64,000 nucleotides of DNA from Streptacidiphilus sp. P02-A3a (GTDB lineage Bacteria; Actinomycetota; Actinomycetes; Streptomycetales; Streptomycetaceae), in assembly GCF_014084105.1 (NCBI RefSeq), contig NZ_CP048289.1, positions 1,373,922 through 1,437,921 on the forward strand, given 5' to 3'. The translations under genes were made by a program, and so were the position numbers. Position 1 is the stretch's first letter. Each line of letters opens with the position of its first letter. The notes under the pieces are model-generated. The model was not told the origin of the DNA. It ran no database searches and worked only from the letters and a program-made list of their open reading frames with translations. This document shows positions 19,559 through 60,949 of the stretch, one piece after another.

Positions 19559-20380
19559 GTGTCGTTCTCTCTGTCTTCGCTTCCCCGCCGTCCGCTGGTG
19601 CTCGGCCTGTGCGCGGTGGTGGTCCTGGCGCTGCTCGCGGTGGCCGCCTTCGTGCGGCTGCCGTTCACGATCATGTACCCCGGGATCACCGTGAACACCC
19701 TCGGCGTCTACGACGGCCAGCGGGTGATCACGATCACCGGGCACCCGCTCCGGCAGACCAGCGGGGAGCTGCGGATGGTGACCATCGCGGCCACCCCGCC
19801 GCAGGACTCGATCTCGATCGGCGCCGCGCTGCGGGCCTGGCCGAACCCCAGCGAGGCGGTGGTGCCCCGGGCCGCGGTCTACCCGGCCGGGCAGTCGGTG
19901 GCGCAGGTGAACGCGCAGGACCAGCAGGAGATGAACCAGTCGCAGCAGGCGGCCACCACGGCCGCGCTGAACCACCTCAAGCTGTCGCCGGACAAGGTCA
20001 AGGTCGGCCTCAGCCTGGCCGACGTCGGCGGCCCCAGCGCCGGGCTGCTGTTCACCCTGGGGATCATCGACGAGCTGGACGGCAACGGCACCGGCAAGCC
20101 CGGCGCGGCCGGGGACCTGACCAACGGCGCGGTCGTCGCCGGGACCGGTGAGATCGACGACAGCGGCCAGGTCTCGCAGGTCGGCGGGGTGGCGCTGAAG
20201 ACCAAGGCGGCGGCACGGGACGGCGCGACGGTGTTCCTGGTCCCGCAGGCCGAGTGCGCGGACGCCGAGGCGGGCCTGCCGAAGGGGCTCCGGCTGGTCC
20301 CGGTGACCTCGCTGGACGACGCGCTGAGCGCGCTCACCGCGCTGCAGACCGGCGTCGGCGCGGTCCCGGCCTGCTCCTAG
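19559..20380 (+). CDS. Membrane-anchored S16 (Lon-like) serine protease
   Basis: The 273-residue protein has one N-terminal transmembrane helix (~12-33) and an extracytoplasmic C-terminal Lon-type protease domain. The catalytic Ser is Ser160 in DVGGPSAGL and the dyad Lys is Lys214 (or 216) in QVGGVALKTKAAARDGA. It resembles YlbL-type proteases but is shorter, and I see no clear PDZ domain between helix and protease. The substrate is unknown. The GTG start at 19559 has GGAGAAGG rather far upstream. The stop codon ends at 20380, where a tandem repeat begins. Confidence 0.82.
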   Translation: MSFSLSSLPRRPLVLGLCAVVVLALLAVAAFVRLPFTIMYPGITVNTLGVYDGQRVITITGHPLRQTSGELRMVTIAATPPQDSISIGAALRAWPNPSEAVVPRAAVYPAGQSVAQVNAQDQQEMNQSQQAATTAALNHLKLSPDKVKVGLSLADVGGPSAGLLFTLGIIDELDGNGTGKPGAAGDLTNGAVVAGTGEIDDSGQVSQVGGVALKTKAAARDGATVFLVPQAECADAEAGLPKGLRLVPVTSLDDALSALTALQTGVGAVPACS

Positions 20381-20484
20381 CCGCCCGCGACCGAGCCGCC
20401 CGCGACCGAGCCGCCGCCGACCGAGCCGCCCGCGACCGAGCCGCCGCCGACCGAGCCGCCCGCGACCGAGCCGCCGCCGACCGA
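20380..20484. repeat. Seven tandem 15-bp repeats between convergent genes
   Basis: The unit is GCCGCCCGCGACCGA (type a) or GCCGCCGCCGACCGA (type b), ordered a-a-b-a-b-a-b with no other change over 105 bp. It fills the space from the protease stop to just before the Lrp stop. The strict alternation suggests that a 30-bp a-b pair was amplified. It has no spacers, so it is not a CRISPR array. Confidence 0.93.
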
Positions 20485-20488
20485 GCCG

Positions 20489-20968
20489 CTAGTCCCGGCC
20501 GGTCGCGGCGGCCTCCCCGACCAGCGGCAGCACCCGGTACGGCACCGGGTTCTCCAGCGCGATCGCGGTGGACGCGCGGACGATCCCGTCGAACCCCACC
20601 ACCAGGTCGATCACCCGCTGCAGGTCGGCGTTGGAGCGGGCGACGATCCGGCAGAGCATGTCCCCCTGCCCGGTGATGGTGTGCAGCTCCAGCACCTCGG
20701 GTACGGACGCCAGGTGTGCCCGCACGTCCGCGCCCTGGCCCTGGGAGATCTCCAGGGTCGCGAAGGCGGTCACCGGGTAGCCGAGCGCGCCCGGGTCCAG
20801 CTGCGGCGCGAAGCCGAGGATCACCCCCCGGCCGCGCAGCCGGTCGAGCCGCGCCTGGACCGTCCCGCGGGCCACCCCGAGCCGTCGGGAGCACTCCAGC
20901 ACGCCGGGCCGGGGTTCTTCGGCGAGCATGGAAAGGAGCGCGGCGTCGAGTGTGTCGATTCCGGACAT
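20489..20968 (-). CDS. Lrp/AsnC-family transcriptional regulator
   Basis: This 159-residue protein has an N-terminal helix-turn-helix (RRLGVARGTVQARLDRLRGR, ~32-51) and a C-terminal RAM ligand-binding domain (VTAFATLEISQG and HTITGQGDMLCRIVA). The start complementary to 20966-20968 is chosen over 20980 because GGGAGGCCCG stands just upstream. It is divergent from hpd with a 161-bp shared control region, so it probably senses an aromatic or other amino acid and controls hpd. This arrangement is, from memory, conserved in streptomycetes. Confidence 0.91.
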   Translation of the reverse strand: MSGIDTLDAALLSMLAEEPRPGVLECSRRLGVARGTVQARLDRLRGRGVILGFAPQLDPGALGYPVTAFATLEISQGQGADVRAHLASVPEVLELHTITGQGDMLCRIVARSNADLQRVIDLVVGFDGIVRASTAIALENPVPYRVLPLVGEAAATGRD

Positions 20969-52373: not shown

Positions 52374-53726
52374 GTGGGGGAGCGGGTGGAACGGGCCCGG
52401 GCGTGGCGCTGGTGGGTGCTGCTGGTGTGGGCGCTGTCACGGCTGGTACTGGTGGCCGGATCGCTGAAGGTGGGCCCGTTCGCGGCCCCCGGCGGCCTGG
52501 ACTACTCGGTCGCCGACGTCTACCACCCGTGGTTCGAGGTGCTCCGCACCGGTGTCTTCCCGGCCCACGACGTCAGCTGGCAGTACCCGCCCGGCGCGGC
52601 GGGGCTGATGCTGTGGCCCGCGCTGGTGCCGTTCACCGACTACGGCCACGCCTTCATCACCCTGTGCGCGCTGTGCGACGCGGCGGTGATGGCGATGCTC
52701 TACCGCCGCGCGACCCGCGGCGGCGCGCGGCGCCCCGGTGGCGCGGGCAGCCTGGCGGGCTGCTGGGTCTGGACGCTGGGCCTGCCGCTGCTGTGGACCA
52801 CCCCGTGGAACCGCTTCGACGTGATGGTGACCGCGCTGGCGGTGGCCGCGCTGCTGGCCGCGTCCTGGCGCGGGGTGCGCGGCGACGCGCTGTTCGGGGT
52901 ACTGGTGGGGCTGGGGGTGCTGATCAAGGTCTGGCCGGTGCTGCTGCTGGTGGGCACGGCCCGCGGGCGGCGCTCCCGGGTGGCCTGGGCGGCGGCCGGG
53001 GCGACCGTGGCGCTGGGCGCGGTGCTGTTCGCGGCGACCATGCCGGGCGCGTTCGACTTCCTCACCGCGCAACGGGACCGGGGCATCGAGTTCGAGTCGC
53101 TGCCCGCGCTGCCCTTCCAACTGGCCCGGCACCTGGGCTGGTCCGGCCGGATCGGGGTGCACGAGGGCTCGACCGAGTTCCTGGGGCCCTGGGTGCGGCC
53201 GGTCGCCGACCTGAGCGAGGTGCTGTCGGCGGCGGCGCTGGGCTGGCTGCTGTGGTGGCGCGCCCGCGCGGACCGCGGTGCGGACCGGGTGCTGCCGGAC
53301 GCGGCCTTCACGGCGGTGCTGCTGTTCGTGGTCACCAGCCGGGTGCTGAGCCCGCAGTACCTGGTGTGGCTGGTCGGGCTGGCGGCGGTGTGCCTGCTGC
53401 GCCCGGCGAGCTCGCAGCGGCCGGTGGCGGTGCTGGTGCTGCTGGCCTGCCCGCTGACCATGGCGATCTTCCCGTTCCTGGGGCGGGCGCTGGTGCACGG
53501 CTCGGTGCTGCCCACGGTCCTGCTGACGCTGCGCGACCTGCTGCTGCTGGCCGCCGCGCTGCTGTCGGCGCGGCGGCTGCCGCGGGCGGCGCCCCGTCGC
53601 GACGCCGCCCCCGAGCCCGTCCCGGCGCTCGCCGGGGTCACCGTGGCGGAGCGGATCCCGCGGCGTTCGCCGGGGGGAGCGCCGAGTCGGCGGGCTGACT
53701 TGGCTGGACCGGGACGGCGGGGGTGA
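52374..53726 (+). CDS. GT87 (DUF2029) mannosyltransferase-like membrane protein
   Basis: The ~450-residue protein has about ten hydrophobic helices, YSVADVYHPWFEVLRTG (with the catalytic Asp), VSWQYPPGAAGLMLWPAL and SRVLSPQYLVWLVGLAA. It should use a polyprenol-phosphate sugar to decorate an envelope lipid. GTG at 52386 has a good GGGGGAGC site and may be the true start. The gene runs 89 bp into the convergent PBP gene, a rather long antisense overlap; the last ~30 residues are Arg/Ala-rich and could be extra. Confidence 0.84.
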   Translation: MGERVERARAWRWWVLLVWALSRLVLVAGSLKVGPFAAPGGLDYSVADVYHPWFEVLRTGVFPAHDVSWQYPPGAAGLMLWPALVPFTDYGHAFITLCALCDAAVMAMLYRRATRGGARRPGGAGSLAGCWVWTLGLPLLWTTPWNRFDVMVTALAVAALLAASWRGVRGDALFGVLVGLGVLIKVWPVLLLVGTARGRRSRVAWAAAGATVALGAVLFAATMPGAFDFLTAQRDRGIEFESLPALPFQLARHLGWSGRIGVHEGSTEFLGPWVRPVADLSEVLSAAALGWLLWWRARADRGADRVLPDAAFTAVLLFVVTSRVLSPQYLVWLVGLAAVCLLRPASSQRPVAVLVLLACPLTMAIFPFLGRALVHGSVLPTVLLTLRDLLLLAAALLSARRLPRAAPRRDAAPEPVPALAGVTVAERIPRRSPGGAPSRRADLAGPGRRG

Positions 53727-56010
53727 CCGGCGTGGTCGGCGCCGACGGGGTCCGCGCCGGGGCGGACGGCGGGACGCTGCTGCTCGCCGGTGCGCTGGGG
53801 GTTTTCGACGGCGCGGCCGGTGCGGACGGCGTGGTGGAGGCGCTGGGGGTGCTCGACGGGGGCGCCGAGGAGGGGATGACCGGGGCCACCGGAGTGGTCG
53901 CGGCGCCGCTCAGGTCGAAGGACGCGACCGGCTGGCTGCTGAGCGCCGAGGACATGTAGGTCGTCCAGATCTGGGTCGGGAAGGCCCCGCCGTTGACCCG
54001 GCTGACACCGGTGGCCTGGCTCAGCGGGATCCGCGCGTGGGTCTTCGGGTCCTCCGCGAACAGGCCGACCGAGGTGGCCAGCTGCGGGGTGTAGCCGATG
54101 AACCAGGCCGAGTTGTTGCTGTCGGTGGTGCCGGTCTTGCCCGCCGCCGGGCGGTCCAGGCCGAGGGCCAGGGCGCCGGTGCCGCTGGGGCTGACCACGC
54201 CCTCCAGGACCGAGGTGACGGTGTCGGCGGTGTCCCGGCTGAAGGCGGTGGTGGCCTTGTGCGCGGGCAGCGTCGTCGGTCGGCCCTCGTGGCTGAGCGC
54301 CTGCACCGACCAGGGGGTGATCTGCTGCCCGTGGTCGGCGAAGGTGGCGTACGCGCCCGCCATCTGGATCGCGTTCGGGGTGGCCACGCCGAGCGCGATG
54401 GACGGGTCGGAGGCGTTCATGCTGGGGGTGTCGGGCGGCAGCCCGGCGGCGACGGCGGCGTTGCGGACGTTGGCCAGGCCCACGTCGGCGGCCTCCTGCG
54501 CGTAGACGCTGTTGACCGACTTCATCATGGCGTAGCGCAGGCTGATGTCCCCGTAGTCGAAGTCGTCCTCGTTCGGCGGCGCGTAGGACTGGCCCTTCGG
54601 CAGGCCCTGGACCGGACGTCCGCTGGTGCCGTCGTAGACGGTGCCGGGGGTGATCGGCACGCCGTCCTGGGTGGTGGCGTGGTCCTGCAGAGCGGCGGCC
54701 AGGTCGAAGGCCTTGAAGGTGGAGCCGACCTGGATGTCGGTCCGGGTGGCGTCGTTGTACTCCTGGGTGGCGTAGTCCGGGCCGCCGTACGCGGCGACCA
54801 GCTTGCCGGTGGTCGGGTCGACCGAGCCCGCCGCCGCGCGGACGTCCTTGGCCTTGGCGGTGTTCGGCAGCTGACTGGTGAGCTCGCTCCTGACGGCCGA
54901 GGCCAGGGCGTCCTGGTCGCTCTTGACGAAGGTGGTGGTGATCCGCCAGCCGCCGGCCGCGAGCGAGGCCTGGTCGACGATGTCGTTGTCGTTGAGGTAC
55001 TGGTTCGCGATGTCGATCAGGTAGCCGGCCTGCCCGCCGACGCCGTCGATCGGGCGGGGCTGCTTGACCGCCGGGAAGGTCTCGGCGGCGCGTTCGGCGG
55101 GGGTGAGCCAGCCGAGCTTCTGCATGCCGTCCAGGACGTAGTTCCAGCGCGCGACGGCGGCGGCCTTCCCGTCCGCGGTGGCGGTGTCCACGTCGTAGGC
55201 GCTGGGGGCCTGGAGCAGCGCGGCCAGGTAGGCGGACTGGGGGACGTTCAGCTGCGAGGCGTTGATCCCGTAGTACGCCTGGGCGGCGGCCTGGATGCCG
55301 TAGGCGCCGCGGCCGAAGTAACTGGTGTTGAGGTACCCGGCCATGATGGTGTCCTTACTCTCGGTCTGGTCGACCTTGAGCGAGATGAAGAACTCCTTCG
55401 CCTTGCGGGCGAGGTTCTGGTCCTGGTTCAGGTAGTAGTTCTTCACGTACTGCTGGGTGATGGTCGAGCCGCCCTGCAGGCCGCGGCCGCTGGCCGTGTA
55501 CCAGGCGGCGCGGGTCATGCCGGTGACGCTGACGCCGCGGTTGGTGTAGAAGGTGCGGTCCTCGGCGGAGACGGCCGCGTGCTGCATGGTGAGCGCGATC
55601 TCGTCGATGGGCACCGAGACCCGGTTGACCTCGCCGGTCTGGCCGATCTCGGTCTTGTTGTCGGAGTAGTAGTAGATGTTGCTCTGCGCGGTCGCGGCGG
55701 CGTTGGCGTCGGGGACCCGGACCACGGTGTACATGACCACGAAGGCGCCGATCCCGAGCAGCAGCACGGTCAGTACGCCGCCGAGGGTCATCCGCCAGGT
55801 CGGGACGCAGCGGCGCCACCAGGGCTTGGCCCGGCGGGCGGCCTTGCGGGACCGCTTCCTGGCGCGTCGGCGTTCGCGGCGACCGGCGCCGGTGCCGCCG
55901 TCGGCGCGGTCCTCCGCCGAGAGGGCGTCCAGGGGCTGGCGAGGGCCGTCCGGGCCGTCCGGGTCGCCGTCGGCTGGTCCCCAGCCCGGTCCCTGTGGTC
56001 CTTGGGTCAT
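53638..56010 (-). CDS. Class A penicillin-binding protein
   Basis: The 790-residue bifunctional enzyme has a basic cytoplasmic lead, one transmembrane helix (~75-97), a GT51 transglycosylase domain (AVSAEDRTFYTNRGVS, GGSTITQQYVKNYYL) and a transpeptidase domain with Ser430 in GSTFK, SVNSVYA and GKTGTTDSN. It makes and cross-links glycan strands. The last ~110 residues are a Ser/Ala/Pro tail. The start complementary to 56008-56010 has GAGGAGC. TTGACC (minus strand, 56104-56109) may be its -35. Confidence 0.93.
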   Translation of the reverse strand: MTQGPQGPGWGPADGDPDGPDGPRQPLDALSAEDRADGGTGAGRRERRRARKRSRKAARRAKPWWRRCVPTWRMTLGGVLTVLLLGIGAFVVMYTVVRVPDANAAATAQSNIYYYSDNKTEIGQTGEVNRVSVPIDEIALTMQHAAVSAEDRTFYTNRGVSVTGMTRAAWYTASGRGLQGGSTITQQYVKNYYLNQDQNLARKAKEFFISLKVDQTESKDTIMAGYLNTSYFGRGAYGIQAAAQAYYGINASQLNVPQSAYLAALLQAPSAYDVDTATADGKAAAVARWNYVLDGMQKLGWLTPAERAAETFPAVKQPRPIDGVGGQAGYLIDIANQYLNDNDIVDQASLAAGGWRITTTFVKSDQDALASAVRSELTSQLPNTAKAKDVRAAAGSVDPTTGKLVAAYGGPDYATQEYNDATRTDIQVGSTFKAFDLAAALQDHATTQDGVPITPGTVYDGTSGRPVQGLPKGQSYAPPNEDDFDYGDISLRYAMMKSVNSVYAQEAADVGLANVRNAAVAAGLPPDTPSMNASDPSIALGVATPNAIQMAGAYATFADHGQQITPWSVQALSHEGRPTTLPAHKATTAFSRDTADTVTSVLEGVVSPSGTGALALGLDRPAAGKTGTTDSNNSAWFIGYTPQLATSVGLFAEDPKTHARIPLSQATGVSRVNGGAFPTQIWTTYMSSALSSQPVASFDLSGAATTPVAPVIPSSAPPSSTPSASTTPSAPAAPSKTPSAPASSSVPPSAPARTPSAPTTPVTPAVPVQPSQPADSALPPANAAGSAPPR

Positions 56011-56145
56011 TGCGCACTGCTCCTCGGGCCGGAGTCGGCGGCCCGGCAGGGGGCTACTGGCTTGACGCGGCCGGTCACTGGTGGTTGTTGATCCGAATGA
56101 GTCGGTCAAATCATCTGGTGTCCCTTTGGTGATGATTAAACCTGA

Positions 56146-56192
56146 TGCGCGGAGGGCCGTGTGCCCGCTACGCTTCCCGCTCGCCCGACCGC
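56146..56192 (+). repeat. Direct repeat copy A bracketing the DUF397 cassette
   Basis: TGCGCGGAGGG (56146-56156), 8 bp of less conserved sequence, then a 28-bp block (56165-56192, starting CCGCTACGCTTCCCG and ending CCCGACCGC). The 11-bp and 28-bp blocks recur exactly and in the same orientation at 57965-58011. Similarity fades out on both sides. Confidence 0.9.
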
Positions 56193-56384
56193 ATACAGCC
56201 ACCGTCCCTTCGCTCCCCCTGCGTGAGCGGTCCGGGTCGGTCCGCAGCCGCTCTCATGTTTCTTACCTACAGACACGGTTCCTGGGGCGTCGGCGGTTCC
56301 CCGCTACCGCAGGTCCTCGGCGGCCCAAGCCCCCGGGCCCGGGCGGCCATGCCTGGTGGAGCGCTCCCATGTCGAAAGCATCAG

Positions 56385-56435
56385 GGCAGCGAAGAGCCCT
56401 CGACCTGTCGTGCCGGTCGAGGGCTCTTCGCTGCC
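56385..56435. terminator. Perfect 21-bp hairpin after the DUF397 gene
   Basis: The arms 56385-56405 and 56415-56435 are complementary over 21 bp around a 9-nt loop, the strongest hairpin of the window. On the minus strand it lies 25 bp past the DUF397 stop and insulates the PBP gene. Confidence 0.93.
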
Positions 56436-56460
56436 AGGACTCAGGGGCCGCGTCCGGAGG

Positions 56461-56667
56461 CTAGTTGAGCCGGTCGTCGATCACCTGGCGGACGAAGGCG
56501 TCCCATCCGGCGCGGGTGAAGGCCAGGATCGGCCCCTGCCCCTGGGCCTTCGAGTCACGCACCCCCACGACACCCGCATGGAACGCCACCTCCACGCACT
56601 GGCCTCCGTTGTCACCGCTGTGGCTGCTCTTGTGCCACTCGGCACTGGTGAAATCGGGGGTGCTCAT
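56461..56667 (-). CDS. DUF397 protein
   Basis: The 68-residue protein has the family pattern FTSAEWHKSSHSGDNGGQCVEVA, VGVRDSKAQGQGPILAFTRAGWDAFV. DUF397 proteins are paired with XRE/DUF5753 regulators in streptomycetes, in which they affect development and secondary metabolism and can behave like a toxin-antitoxin pair (Scr-type systems, from the literature as I recall it). The start complementary to 56665-56667 follows GGGAG; XRE lies 28 bp upstream in the same operon. Confidence 0.92.
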   Translation of the reverse strand: MSTPDFTSAEWHKSSHSGDNGGQCVEVAFHAGVVGVRDSKAQGQGPILAFTRAGWDAFVRQVIDDRLN

Positions 56668-56695
56668 GCTGGTACTCCCTCTTGGGTTGATGGCA

Positions 56696-57562
56696 CTAGC
56701 TCGCGCTGGCAAGGTGAAGGATCATGCGGCGCGACTCTACTTGACCCCTGGCCGCAGCTTGCAGGCGATTCCAAAGAGCACCGTAAGCTTGCACGCCATC
56801 CGGTCGATCGAGATAGGCCGCGTCGGTGTAGTCCTCAAGGTAGACCACGTCAGAGGCCGCGTCATGGTCAAAGCGCATGATCGTGAAACCCACCCAGGCG
56901 GCACCGAAGGTCTGCGCATCGAAGGGCAGCACCTGCAGTTCCACGTTGGGGAGTTCGGCAATCTCGGCCAAGTGCAGCAACTGTTCGCGCATGACCGCCG
57001 AGTCGCCGATGTTCCGTCGGATTGCTGACTCGCTCAGGATGAAGTTGAGCAGGGGAGCGTTGGCTTGCTTGATGATCGCCTGCCGTCCGATGCGCACCTT
57101 GAGTTGCTGTTCCATCGCGTCATCCGAGACTCGCGAGTGGGCCTTGATGTTCATTGCGCGGATGTAGCTCTCGGTCTGGAGGATGCCCGGCACTACCTCG
57201 GGTTGGTACCAGCGGAGTTCCGAGGCGTCGGCTTCAAGGTCGACGTACGTGCGGAACCAGTCGGGGATCGCCCCCAAATAGCCGGTCCACCTGCCCCGCT
57301 GCCGACCGGCGCGTGCCAACTCGCGCATGACTTCGGCTTGTTCGCCCTTCACACCGTAGAAGTCGAGCAGCAGCGTCAGGTCTGTCAACTTGATGCCGCT
57401 CTGACCGAGTTCCAGGCGACTGACCTTGCTTGCTGCTGCGTCGATCTGCTCGGCGGCTTCATCCTGCGTCTTGTTCGCCTCCTCGCGAGCGCGCTTCAGG
57501 GCGTTGCCGAGCCGACGCCCGCTTGAGGCGGCTGCGAGATCCCTGCGCCGCCGGGTGGCCAA
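56696..57562 (-). CDS. XRE-family regulator with DUF5753-like sensor domain
   Basis: The 288-residue protein has an HTH (~15-70: LKRAREEANKTQDEAAEQID ... KVSRLELGQSGIKLTDLTLLLDFYG) and the DUF5753 region (WFRTYVDLEADASELRWYQPEVVPGILQTESYIRA, FILSESAIRR, VQVLPF-type LQVLPFDA, YLEDYTDAAYLDRP). It should regulate itself and the DUF397 partner. The start is taken as TTG at 57562, the only start codon before the HTH in a reasonable place; AGAAGGA abuts it directly, which is poor spacing. Codon use is less GC-biased than in neighbours. Confidence 0.87.
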   Translation of the reverse strand: MATRRRRDLAAASSGRRLGNALKRAREEANKTQDEAAEQIDAAASKVSRLELGQSGIKLTDLTLLLDFYGVKGEQAEVMRELARAGRQRGRWTGYLGAIPDWFRTYVDLEADASELRWYQPEVVPGILQTESYIRAMNIKAHSRVSDDAMEQQLKVRIGRQAIIKQANAPLLNFILSESAIRRNIGDSAVMREQLLHLAEIAELPNVELQVLPFDAQTFGAAWVGFTIMRFDHDAASDVVYLEDYTDAAYLDRPDGVQAYGALWNRLQAAARGQVESRRMILHLASAS

Positions 57563-57580
57563 TCCTTCTAAGGAGCGATC

Positions 57581-57898
57581 TTGAAGCCCTTGGCCTATGG
57601 GTACATGTGTGTGACCGTCGAGTCGGACGACGAGCAACTCCTGCGTTCCGAAAGGTTGTTGGTTCAGTATGCGGAAGCTGAGGGCTATCGCCTGGGGATG
57701 ATCTTCTATGACTACGCCCCAGGGCAACTCAGGACGTTCGCCGCGCTGATGCGCGCACTGCAATGCTCTGAGGCGTACCACGTCCTCACGCCCTCCAGGG
57801 GGCATCTGGCTCGCCATCCGGTGCTGCAGAGAGCCCTGATCAGAATCCTGGAGGACAATGCCGACGCTGAGCTCATCGAAGTCGGTGAACCAGAGTGA
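57581..57898 (+). CDS. Degenerate serine-recombinase-like small protein
   Basis: The 105-residue product resembles the N-terminal catalytic domain of resolvase/invertase recombinases: AYGYMCVTVESDDEQLL, LVQYAEAEGYRLGMIFYDYA, YHVLTPSRGHLARHPVLQ. However the active-site Arg and Ser of the YxRVS motif are Cys10 and Thr12, and there is no DNA-binding domain. It is probably inactive as a recombinase. TTG at 57581 has a good AAGGAG (57570-57575). It starts 18 bp from, and divergent to, the XRE gene. GC content is clearly lower than average. Confidence 0.72.
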   Translation: MKPLAYGYMCVTVESDDEQLLRSERLLVQYAEAEGYRLGMIFYDYAPGQLRTFAALMRALQCSEAYHVLTPSRGHLARHPVLQRALIRILEDNADAELIEVGEPE

Positions 57899-57964
57899 TG
57901 GCCAGTCGGGCAGTTCGTCTGACGATTGGTCATGAGTTTCGCCCCGGCGGCGGATAAAACCCAG

Positions 57965-58011
57965 TGCGCGGAGGGTTGTCGGGCCGCTACGCTTCCCGCT
58001 CGCCCGACCGC
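57965..58011 (+). repeat. Direct repeat copy B bracketing the DUF397 cassette
   Basis: TGCGCGGAGGG (57965-57975) and the 28-bp block (57984-58011) repeat those at 56146-56192 exactly and in the same direction, 1819 bp apart. This copy lies 119 bp before the ABC permease start. Confidence 0.9.
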
Positions 58012-58130
58012 GTAGAGCTACCGGTCCCCTTGCTGCCGCCCCCTGGGCAGCCGCATGGGGGCCTGCTTGGCGTGCGCGTGTGTCGGGCTGTCTGTGTTCG
58101 CACGGTATTCAGAGAGGAAGTGGTTCCCCG

Positions 58131-59051
58131 ATGCCGCCGGTACTCGACGACGTCCACCCACCCTGTCCGCCTCCGCCCGATCCGCCCCCCGTACCGCCGA
58201 GCCGCTCGGGAGCGCTCCCGGCGCTGCGGCCCGCGGTCGGGCTGTACGCGGCCGTGGGCCGGGGCAGCTTCCGCCGGTACGCCACCTACCGGGCGGCGAC
58301 CTGGTCCGGGGCGCTCACCAACAGCGTCTTCGGCTTCTTCATCGCGTACACCTACCGGGCGCTGTGGGAGGTCCGGCCGCACCTCGGGGGCTACGACCTC
58401 AGTTCGGCGCTGACCTACGTCTGGCTCGGCCAGGCGATGCTGATGCCGGTGGCCGCGATGGGCGGCGGGATCCAGGACGACCTGGAGGCGCGGATCAGCA
58501 ACGGTGACATCGCGGTCGACCTGTACCGGCCGGTGGACCAGCAGGCCTGGTGGCTGGCCGCGGACCTGGGCCGGGCCGGGTACCACCTGCTGTCGCGCGG
58601 GGTGCTGCCGCTGCTGGTCGGCGGACTGTTCTTCCGGCTGCGGATGCCCGCGGGCGGGCTCGCCGAGGCGGCGCTGACCTGGTGCGGCTTCCTGGTGTCG
58701 GTGCTGCTCGCGGTGACCGTCAGCTTCTCGCTGCGCTACATGACCTCGCTCACCGGCTTCTGGCTGCTGGACGCGCGCGGGGTCAGGCAGGTCGCGCTGG
58801 TGCTCGGGATGTTCTTCTCCGGCTTCCTGCTGCCGCTGACGCTGTTCCCGTCGACCCTCGGGCAGATCTCGGAGCACCTGCCGTGGGCGGGGATGGTGCA
58901 GATCCCGGAGGACGTCTTCCTGCAGCGGCGGACCGGTGCCGCGCTGCTGACCGGGCTGGGACTGCAACTCGGCTGGGCGGCGCTGCTGCTGGGCGCGGGG
59001 CGGCTGGTCCAGCGGGCGGCGGCGGCCAAGGTGGTGGTCCAGGGTGGCTGA
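58131..59051 (+). CDS. ABC-2 type permease, first subunit
   Basis: The 306-residue protein has a Pro-rich lead (~1-30) and six hydrophobic helices (GALTNSVFGFFIAYTYRALW, YVWLGQAMLMPVAAMGGG, LLSRGVLPLLVGGLFF, FLVSVLLAVTVSFSLRYM). It belongs to the ABC2_membrane_6 group. With the next permease and ATPase it should form an exporter. The second gene starts within its last codons. The substrate is unknown. Confidence 0.87.
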   Translation: MPPVLDDVHPPCPPPPDPPPVPPSRSGALPALRPAVGLYAAVGRGSFRRYATYRAATWSGALTNSVFGFFIAYTYRALWEVRPHLGGYDLSSALTYVWLGQAMLMPVAAMGGGIQDDLEARISNGDIAVDLYRPVDQQAWWLAADLGRAGYHLLSRGVLPLLVGGLFFRLRMPAGGLAEAALTWCGFLVSVLLAVTVSFSLRYMTSLTGFWLLDARGVRQVALVLGMFFSGFLLPLTLFPSTLGQISEHLPWAGMVQIPEDVFLQRRTGAALLTGLGLQLGWAALLLGAGRLVQRAAAAKVVVQGG

Positions 59052-59907
59052 GACGACGGATGCGCCAAGCGTCCTCCCCGCCCGACTGGGAGCGCTCCCG
59101 TCGATCTGGGCGGCACTGCGGGCGTACCTGCTGGTCGCCGGGATGTGGTTGCGCGCCTCGCTGGCGTACCGCACCTCGTTCTGGCTGACCATGGTCGGCA
59201 ACGGGGTCACCTCGGCCCTGGACTTCGCGGTGATCGCGATCATGTTCCTGCACACCCGGGCCCTCGGCGGCTGGACCCTGCCGCAGGTGGCCTTCCTGTA
59301 CGGGACCGCCGGGATGACCCTGGGACTGGCCGACCTGGCCGTCGGCAGCCTGGACCAGCTGGGCCAGCGGGTCCGCGACGGCTCGGTGGACACCGTGCTG
59401 ATCCGCCCGGCCGCCGCGCTGGCCCAGCTGTGCGCGGACCGCTTCGCGCTGCGTCGGCTGGGCCGGGTGCTGCAGTCGGCGCTGGTCCTGCTCTGGTCCG
59501 TGTCCCGGCTGCACCTCGACTGGACGCCGGGGCGGGTGCTGGTGACGCTGCTGCTGCTGGTGTGCGGGAGTGTGATCTTCGGATCGGTGTTCGTCGCTGG
59601 TGGCGCCTTCCAGTTCTTCGCCGCCGACGCCGCCGAGGTGCAGAACTCGGTGACCTACGGCGGCTCGGCGATGCTCCAGTACCCGCCCACGATCTACGCC
59701 CGCGAGCTGGTGCGCGGGGTCGTCTACGGGGTGCCGCTGGCGTTCGTGAACTGGCTGCCCGCGATGTACGTGCTGGGCCTGCCGGACCGGCTGGGCCTGC
59801 CCGGCTGGTTCCGCTTCGCCTCGCCGATCGCCGCCCTGCTCTGCGCCACGGCGGCCGGGCTTGCCTGGCGCGCCGCGCTGCGCTCCTACCGCAGCACCGG
59901 CAGCTGA
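59044..59907 (+). CDS. ABC-2 type permease, second subunit
   Basis: The 287-residue protein has six helices and the same family pattern (LRASLAYRTSFWLTMVGNGV, GSLDQLGQRVRDGSVDTVLIRP, YPPTIYARELVRGVVYGVPLAFVNWLPA). GTG at 59044 overlaps the previous gene by 8 bp, so the pair is coupled and probably forms a heterodimer. Confidence 0.87.
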   Translation: MAETTDAPSVLPARLGALPSIWAALRAYLLVAGMWLRASLAYRTSFWLTMVGNGVTSALDFAVIAIMFLHTRALGGWTLPQVAFLYGTAGMTLGLADLAVGSLDQLGQRVRDGSVDTVLIRPAAALAQLCADRFALRRLGRVLQSALVLLWSVSRLHLDWTPGRVLVTLLLLVCGSVIFGSVFVAGGAFQFFAADAAEVQNSVTYGGSAMLQYPPTIYARELVRGVVYGVPLAFVNWLPAMYVLGLPDRLGLPGWFRFASPIAALLCATAAGLAWRAALRSYRSTGS

Positions 59908-59956: not shown

Positions 59957-60949
59957 ATGGGAATCATCGAGGTCGAGGACGTGGTCCGGACCTTCACGGT
60001 ACGGCGCCGGACCGGACGGCTGAGACGCGAGCGCATCGAGGTGCGGGCGGTGGAGGGCCTGACCTTCGGCATCGAGCCGGGGGAGATGGTCGGCTACATC
60101 GGCCCCAACGGCGCGGGCAAGTCCACCACCATCAAGATGCTCACCGGCATCCTGGTCCCCAGCTCGGGGCGGCTGCGGGTGGCCGGGGTCGATCCGCAGC
60201 GGGAGCGGACCCGGCTGGCCCGGCGCATCGGCGTGGTCTTCGGCCAGCGGACCACCCTGTGGTGGGACCTGCCGCTGCGGGACTCCTACGAGTTGGCGCG
60301 GCGCATCTACCGGATCGAGGAGGCCCGCTACCGGCGCAACCTGGACCGCTGCGTGGAACTGCTGGAGCTCGGCCCGCTGCTGGACGTCCCGGTCCGCCAG
60401 CTCTCGCTCGGCCAGCGGATGCGCGGCGACATCGCGGCGGCACTGCTGCACGACCCGGAGGTGCTCTACCTGGACGAGCCCACCATCGGCCTGGACGTGG
60501 TCAGCCGGAACAAGGTGCGGGCCTTCCTCGCCGAGATCAACGCCGAGGCGGGGACGACGGTGCTGCTCACCACCCACGACCTCACCGACATCGAACGGCT
60601 GTGCTCACGGGTGATGGTGATCGACCACGGCCGGGTGGTCTACGACGGCGGGATCGAGGGGCTGCACGCCACCGGGCGCAGCGAGCGCACCCTGGTCGTG
60701 GACCTGGCCGAGCCCGCCGGGCCGATCCAGGTGCCGGGGACCCGGGTGGTCCGGATCGAGGGGCCGCGCCAGTGGCTGTCCTTCCCGGCCTCGCAGAGCG
60801 CCGCGCCGCTGGTCGCGGCGGTCGCGGCGAACCACGCGCTGGTCGACCTGTCGGTGCGGGAGCCCGCGATCGAGGACGTGATCGCGCGGATGTACGGCGA
60901 GCGGGGGGAGGTGGCGGCGGAATCGGCGGCCGTGGGCGTGGGGGATTGA
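59957..60949 (+). CDS. ABC transporter ATPase
   Basis: The 330-residue ATPase shows Walker A GPNGAGKST (49-57), signature LSLGQRMRGD, Walker B VLYLDEPTIGLD and the H-loop TTHDLTD. The C-terminal ~80 residues fit the DUF4162-like end of ABC-2 exporters. AGGAGGG precedes the ATG at 59957. It completes the exporter with the two permeases. Confidence 0.93.
   Translation: MGIIEVEDVVRTFTVRRRTGRLRRERIEVRAVEGLTFGIEPGEMVGYIGPNGAGKSTTIKMLTGILVPSSGRLRVAGVDPQRERTRLARRIGVVFGQRTTLWWDLPLRDSYELARRIYRIEEARYRRNLDRCVELLELGPLLDVPVRQLSLGQRMRGDIAAALLHDPEVLYLDEPTIGLDVVSRNKVRAFLAEINAEAGTTVLLTTHDLTDIERLCSRVMVIDHGRVVYDGGIEGLHATGRSERTLVVDLAEPAGPIQVPGTRVVRIEGPRQWLSFPASQSAAPLVAAVAANHALVDLSVREPAIEDVIARMYGERGEVAAESAAVGVGD

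Follow-up and report, generated by a model that had tools for sequence, protein, structure and literature searches.

A WhiJ/BldB-type locus inserted between a penicillin-binding protein gene and an ABC exporter operon in Streptacidiphilus sp. P02-A3a, and the direct repeat that brackets it

A 64-kb stretch of the genome of Streptacidiphilus sp. P02-A3a (positions 1373922-1437921 of its single 9.33-Mb contig; hereafter the window) contains a block of about 1.7 kb with low GC content, referred to below as the cassette, in which genes for a DUF397 protein, for an XRE-family regulator with a DUF5753 domain and for a resolvase-like protein (RLP; the name does not refer to the RES toxin domain) lie between two direct repeats. 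This raises the question of what the repeats are: the ends of a mobile unit, a control sequence that accompanies DUF397 systems, or a trace of something else. Comparison with related genomes identified the cassette as an insertion between a penicillin-binding protein (PBP) gene and an ABC exporter operon. In its probable history, a WhiJ/BldB-type locus was inserted in the divergent promoter region of these neighbors, and approximately 90 bp of the exporter promoter core was duplicated.

The cassette and its insertion site

The genes of the cassette and those on either side are the following (coordinates are those of the window):

56461..56667, minus strand: DUF397 (BldB-like) gene, 68 aa (Pfam PF04149, 80.5 bits)
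56696..57562, minus strand: gene of an XRE-family regulator with DUF5753 (WhiJ-like; PF19054, 183 bits; HTH_31, 44 bits), with a putative TTG start at 57562
57581..57898, plus strand: gene of a stand-alone resolvase-N-domain-like protein (RLP), 105 aa, divergent from the regulator gene (Resolvase match, 15 bits)
53638..56010, minus strand: left neighbor, PBP gene with transglycosylase and transpeptidase domains (Pfam Transgly, 190 bits; Transpeptidase, 94 bits)
58131..59051, plus strand: right neighbor, ABC exporter permease 1 (ABC2_membrane_6; Pfam PF06182)
59044..59907, plus strand: ABC exporter permease 2 (after permease 1 in 29/29 relatives' loci)
59957..60949, plus strand: ABC exporter ATPase (open reading frame with ATPase motifs recognized by eye; after permease 2 in 29/29 relatives' loci)

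The DUF397 gene is located directly downstream of the XRE-DUF5753 gene, both on the minus strand. Judged by these domain matches, the two form a pair of the WhiJ/BldB type (XRE-DUF5753 plus DUF397), which is accompanied by a divergent stand-alone resolvase-like gene. Its GC content (0.63 at 56373-57952) is lower than that of the whole window (0.722), and the lowest-GC 1.58-kb stretches of the window, sampled every 200 bp, coincide with it. Both the gene pair and the lower GC content had been noted in a preliminary description of this DNA, made from the sequence alone, and they are borne out here.

A search with the exporter permease in 61 genomes gave matches in 46, and loci were fetched for 30 of these, the source included; the four named genomes among those matched are all Streptacidiphilus. 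In 22 of the 29 relatives' loci, the PBP gene lies next to the exporter and divergent from it; none was found within the flank of the remaining seven. The PBP gene and the exporter are neighbors, with no cassette between them, in all 12 same-genus genomes that have the exporter (one same-genus genome, 76% complete, lacked an exporter match), and no DUF397, XRE or RLP homolog (E ≤ 1e-5) was found in the fetched 1.5-kb flanks of any of the 29 loci. Since the flanking genes adjoin in relatives without the cassette, the cassette is an insertion, and it does split genes of the PBP and exporter regions, as had been proposed.

The regulator has a single relative at E ≤ 1e-70 in 394 genomes of the source's taxonomic family (six candidates scored per genome). 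This protein is 64% identical, and two DUF397 genes lie beside its gene; no RLP gene was found near it in the 11 kb read.

The direct repeat and the putative exporter promoter

The following features concern the repeat and its surroundings:

56134..56221, plus strand: left copy of a direct repeat of approximately 90 bp, a putative duplicated exporter promoter region, which stops within the leader hairpin (alignments, shuffles)
56165-56192, plus strand: exact 28-bp block, left copy (exact repeat listing)
57953..58045, plus strand: right copy of the direct repeat, the putative exporter promoter beside the leader (alignments)
57984-58011, plus strand: exact 28-bp block, right copy, which holds the -10-like box GCTACGCT (exact repeat listing)
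58021..58072, plus strand: conserved exporter leader hairpin (covariance model and fold z-score, given below)
56385..56435, no strand assigned: 21-bp perfect inverted repeat 3' of the DUF397 gene, a probable bidirectional terminator (inverted-repeat search)

The two 28-bp blocks have the same direction and a shift of 1819, and they sit inside an ungapped 71-bp repeat of 83% identity (56134-56204 / 57953-58023), which also takes in an 11-bp block, TGCGCGGAGGG (56146-56156 / 57965-57975). When gaps are allowed, the repeat reaches 56221 and 58045, with 71 identical columns out of 92. A chance origin is excluded by the number of exact 28-mer pairs expected in 64 kb of the window's composition (~3e-6) and by the alignment score of the left against the right copy, which is 107, compared with 40 for the best of 500 shuffles. 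The repeats reported in the preliminary description were thus confirmed, in their coordinates and by this score. The 28-bp pair is the longest exact direct repeat among the plus-strand matches listed, a listing that left a tandem array at 20379-20489 unmerged. This short array has a period of 15 or 30 bp.

The exact block was then sought, at ≤3 mismatches, in the 394 genomes (source included), as the preliminary description had suggested, and it was present in two of them: twice in the source, where no third copy was found, and elsewhere as one match with 3 mismatches. Many dispersed copies were therefore not seen, and a dispersed repeat family is ruled out, the 28-mer being almost confined to this locus. 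The exact 28-mer had no match in viral contigs. Of 48 inverted pairs, the 25 longest include none that would join the two ends as terminal inverted repeats. A known RNA family in the repeat was considered and rejected, Rfam having given one sub-threshold miRNA match, at the terminator-like inverted repeat.

Conserved features upstream of the exporter give a clue to the nature of the repeat. Of 12 genus relatives, 11 have a -10-like box there, GCTANNCT (the label "-10" is our own and is based on conservation), and 11 have a hairpin that reads GCCCCTTCG...GGGGC; both are present in ten, 34-125 bp apart, the distance being 39 bp in the right copy of the source. A covariance model was built from the hairpins of nine relatives, in whose alignment three of 15 pairs carry compensatory changes, with both partners altered and pairing preserved (of these three, one is disrupted in 3/9 sequences and another in 1/9). 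The right copy scored 24.5 bits with this model and the next best site in the whole window 16.9 bits; the left copy scored 2.3 bits, under many chance matches in the same 2.5 kb. The fold z-scores were -2.78 for the right copy and -0.57 for the left, compared with -3.14, -3.05 and -0.89 for the relatives G005, G012 and G013, respectively. By both measures, the right copy runs into a predicted leader hairpin that is conserved in the genus and that the left copy lacks. The hairpin is kept only beside the right copy, and the repeat is therefore read as the exporter's own promoter in duplicate, a reading from conservation that is supported, not proven.

Rfam gave no match for the source copy of the hairpin. 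This hairpin, which lies at 58021-58072 in the source and at loci L023-L027, L031, L033-L035, L038 and L040 of Streptacidiphilus relatives, resembles an uncharacterized leader or attenuator for an exporter of the ABC-2 type. Further downstream, two perfect GGGAGCGCTCCC palindromes lie inside the starts of both permease genes (58208-58219 and 59088-59099). Such sites number 21 genome-wide, compared with one for the reversed control, and we take them to resemble CebR/LacI-type operators.

Five relatives (G013, G003, G005, G001 and G011) were aligned in detail, and the intergenic region of each contains one -10-like box. The core of the left copy is similar, in register with this box, to the corresponding sequence of G013 (5/500 shuffles as good) and G003 (0/500). 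The expectation of a single repeat at the cassette-free site therefore holds in part: it is borne out in these two genomes, and in the other three only the single box was seen. That the relatives hold one copy of the repeat is supported, not proven. The copies are 77% identical to each other, and over those columns either copy is 51-62% identical to the five relatives; because they are closer to each other than to the relatives, they would have been duplicated in the source lineage after its split from these five, or else homogenized. Downstream of the right copy, similarity to G013 exceeds that in all 500 shuffles; upstream of it, there is no significant match (376/500). In our reading, the left-hand sequence would be the PBP side and the right-hand sequence the exporter side, with the promoter core of about 90 bp doubled between them. 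The possibility that the left copy duplicates the entire intergenic sequence as far as the start of the exporter was dropped, as the shuffle control failed to support the tail.

Under the insertion with duplication that we consider probable, the RLP, XRE-DUF5753 and DUF397 locus would have entered, in the source lineage, the promoter region common to the PBP gene and the exporter operon, and this event would have doubled about 90 bp of the target, the promoter core of the exporter. The right copy would still supply the exporter with a -10 box and a leader hairpin, and the left side would retain the upstream region of the PBP gene, the left copy being a leftover truncated in the hairpin. The duplication may have come about by recombination or by break repair as the locus inserted, and it may have persisted because both promoters were spared. 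Within the cassette, the iosA-whiJ9-bldB9 locus suggests, by analogy, that the divergent RLP gene would be under the control of the XRE protein and that the DUF397 protein would modulate this control. The repeats thus look like the ordinary trace of an old insertion, and they suggest how a new regulator may enter a shared divergent promoter with neither neighbor disabled.

Several observations weigh against this reading. (i) The closest cassette-free genome, G013, has 81% identity in the permease, and none closer was to hand. (ii) The left copy core is not significantly similar to G005 (152/500), G001 (251/500) or G011 (127/500), and the right copy core is significant in none of the five relatives (G005, 23/500; the others, 167-255/500). 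Because the right copy alone is not significant, the case for tying the repeat to the ancestral site depends on the left copy, on position and on the mutual homology of the copies. (iii) The tail downstream of the left copy does not match G013 significantly (314/500). (iv) The ends of the duplication are uncertain and its true length may exceed ~90 bp, because the left and right sequences just outside the core are borderline similar (heads, 7/500; tails, 19/500). (v) The hairpin model lacks genome-wide specificity: another site scored 23.7 bits, and the right-copy site was not among the matches listed (150 of 7811 candidates scored). (vi) The promoter and terminator roles are predictions. (vii) The identical 28-bp run is over-long, which hints at constraint or gene conversion; with 12 differences placed randomly in 71 bp, a run of 28 has P = 0.016, and the exact block appears mildly, not strikingly, conserved beyond the rest of the repeat.

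A direct duplication of shared homology around the insert is also exactly what a Campbell-type integration predicts, in which an incoming molecule that bore both the cassette and a homologous intergenic piece would recombine by one crossover, and homology of the copies over about 90 bp fits it. We nevertheless consider this route unlikely. The derived changes polarized with G013 alternate between the left and right copies, and the two clean halves of a single crossover with a diverged donor were not seen. Moreover, the donor must already have carried the intergenic piece beside the cassette, and none was seen in the 28-mer and XRE searches of the family genomes.

The resolvase-like protein and its three-gene module

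The third gene of the cassette had been described as a degenerate recombinase-like gene. The likeness to recombinases stands, by a weak Resolvase match (15 bits, with a cut-off of 23.3) that recurs (PF00239) in 4/4 members of the RLP family scanned; the degeneracy does not. A search for homologous proteins with the single RLP sequence returned only itself, but a profile of four RLP sequences retrieved 269 clusters (120 of them listed), most of them ~104 aa long and frequently annotated as "recombinase family protein". As judged by length and alignment, RLP is a full-length member of this family of ~104-aa proteins and no fragment or debris.

In an alignment of 46 entries, source RLP included, the catalytic position (which we take, from resolvase biochemistry, to be the serine after a Y-x-R-V motif) is occupied by Ser in one entry and by Thr in 17, among them the source RLP, and otherwise mainly by Ala, Pro, Gln or Glu. 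The Arg preceding the catalytic position is kept in 45/46, and only the source RLP has Cys there. The 105 aa of the latter give only the N-domain-like match, with no C-terminal DNA-binding domain. Its AlphaFold model (pLDDT 93.9) has alternating strands and helices. Profile matches to PDB chains were weak (3lhk, E 0.011; 6dgc, E 0.068) and ranked under a chain named Putative RTX-toxin (E 0.00088), which was taken as unrelated. A resolvase fold is thus predicted for RLP from the Pfam match, the weak PDB profile match and the AlphaFold secondary structure. A viral scan with an RLP relative found nothing.

RLP homologs at E 1e-20 or better were found in 15 of 297 family genomes, at 23 loci. An XRE-DUF5753 gene lies within 1.5 kb at 13 of these, ten of which also have a DUF397 gene in the flank; the other ten have neither within this distance, and several of them are tandem RLP pairs. 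Such pairs are L059 4426-5051 (G011:C1), L141/L149 (G017) and L139/L153 (G226), with no XRE or DUF397 gene found within 1.5 kb. When longer flanks were used (10-kb stretches for 11 of the 13 modules, plus two source-genome loci), DUF397 was present in 13/13 modules and RLP was divergent in 13/13, the modules having been chosen for having RLP. The distance from the RLP start to the helix-turn-helix (HTH) anchor of the XRE gene is 237-725 bp in 12 modules and 60 bp in the source cassette. Because this divergent gap has collapsed and the near-invariant Arg has changed, the source cassette looks eroded and may be decaying or rewired.

Only the source cassette, out of the 13 modules, is tightly bracketed by repeats. 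The L160 module has long repeats of 69-72% identity, the right one 1.8 kb beyond the module, and the L163 module has a 61-bp pair (74%) further out; the others have only short, chance-level pairs, and the second module of the source genome (9147247-9148883) has no tight flanking repeat. The more general idea that repeats flank DUF5753 loci was likewise rejected: 30 of 33 DUF5753 matches had loci and, with exact repeats ≥16 bp and >500 bp apart, only the source cassette was bracketed, three others being one-sided. The suggestion that the repeats are a control sequence accompanying DUF397 systems is consequently not supported, with one module in 13 tightly bracketed and the repeat read as an exporter promoter.

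A repeat of another kind was observed at G000:C1:9150145-9150730 and 9151477-9152062 (L132 1146-1731 and 2478-3063), near the chromosome end. It is a 586-bp direct repeat of 99.3% identity, part of a quinone-oxidoreductase-like gene (named by eye), with a third partial copy further on. Between the two copies lies a small gene whose PIN match falls below threshold; this gene appears to have been inserted and its neighbor duplicated in the process.

A further reading of the cassette is that of a small site-specific element, in which the repeats would be attL and attR, the integrase lost or borrowed, and the single copy at the empty site attB. A direct repeat at each end, one related sequence in the cassette-free G013 and G003 and the low GC content inside all agree with such an element, but we regard it as quite improbable. 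No integrase was found among the three cassette genes scanned (other overlapping open reading frames lay outside the scan), the RLP family has the catalytic Ser in one of 46 aligned entries, and RLP is without a DNA-binding domain. The 28-mer, at ≤3 mismatches, has no third copy in the source genome and one 3-mismatch match in the other 393 family genomes, the homology runs ~30 bp past the exact core on both sides, and the twelve sibling modules have no comparably tight repeats. Nor was there an exact viral-contig match or a phage DNA match, and the plasmid matches were short ones on three records, all in the DUF397 region; on these grounds, a phage or plasmid origin of the block was rejected. 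The view of the repeats as the ends of a mobile unit, put forward in the preliminary description, is therefore not supported, given the missing integrase, the near-unique 28-mer, and the catalytic residues and DNA-binding domain that RLP lacks.

There is equally little to recommend a functional left promoter copy, which would drive RNA toward the 3' end of the DUF397 gene and be kept for control of the cassette, since, although the -10-like box and 28 bp are identical in both copies (P = 0.016 for such a run), the strong inverted repeat 56385-56435 comes after, and G013 and G003 resemble the left copy more than the right, the left copy lacks the conserved leader hairpin (2.3 bits; fold z -0.57) and the arrangement occurs in 0/12 sibling modules.

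As for the modules themselves, we tentatively propose that RLP and the XRE-DUF397 pair form a distinct, recurrent class of BldB/WhiJ-type loci in actinobacteria, in which a catalytically dead protein of recombinase fold would be the regulated output and would act by binding DNA or protein and not by recombination. A literature search pairing DUF397 with resolvase or recombinase returned no description of the three-gene module within the library and words searched; no paper there mentions DUF397 together with resolvase, and DUF397 occurs with recombinase only by way of a reference list or of a table entry about XerD, which is another recombinase.

Comparison with known systems

In target-site duplications and att-flanked insertions, the insert is bordered on both sides by a direct repeat. 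Like them, the source cassette has end repeats, to which a single related sequence corresponds in G013 and G003, where the cassette is absent. Unlike them, it repeats about 90 bp of an apparent host promoter, the genes scanned include neither a transposase nor an integrase, and there are no dispersed copies. With the serine recombinase N-domain (PF00239), RLP shares the weak family match and the predicted strand/helix fold; unlike serine recombinases, its family has Ser at the catalytic position in 1/46, no DNA-binding domain and a length of mostly ~104 aa.

The Scr1/Scr2 XRE-DUF397 pairs (PMC6262351, PMC10364602) have the same two-gene order and domains; unlike them, the source cassette has an extra divergent gene and a flanking promoter duplication. 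XRE-DUF397 pairs have been proposed as toxin-antitoxin systems (PMC2701414, PMC4239341), but 14 DUF397 proteins of S. coelicolor showed no clear toxicity (PMC10364602).

The closest parallels are the iosA-whiJ9-bldB9 and abaA-whiJ-bldB loci of Streptomyces (PMC10294661), which share with the cassette an XRE/WhiJ regulator beside a DUF397/BldB paralog and a further gene. This third gene, in the abaA/iosA slot, stands beside the pair but not at every such locus (PMC10294661). It is divergent in the source cassette, and iosA and whiJ9 share one intergenic region (PMC10294661). The 10-bp WhiJ9 motif CGXXCTCAAC (CGNNCTCAAC) was not found in any of the 11 gaps searched among the 13 modules, the collapsed gap of the source included, and paralogs may bind other sequences. 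The third gene product is AbaA or IosA in the Streptomyces loci (PMC10294661), whereas it is a resolvase-N-domain-like protein here. Many BldB/WhiJ loci exist and little is understood of them, and an apparently dead resolvase-like protein in the abaA/iosA position would add a third kind of gene and give these loci a concrete, testable output; this recurring partner is the part worth following.

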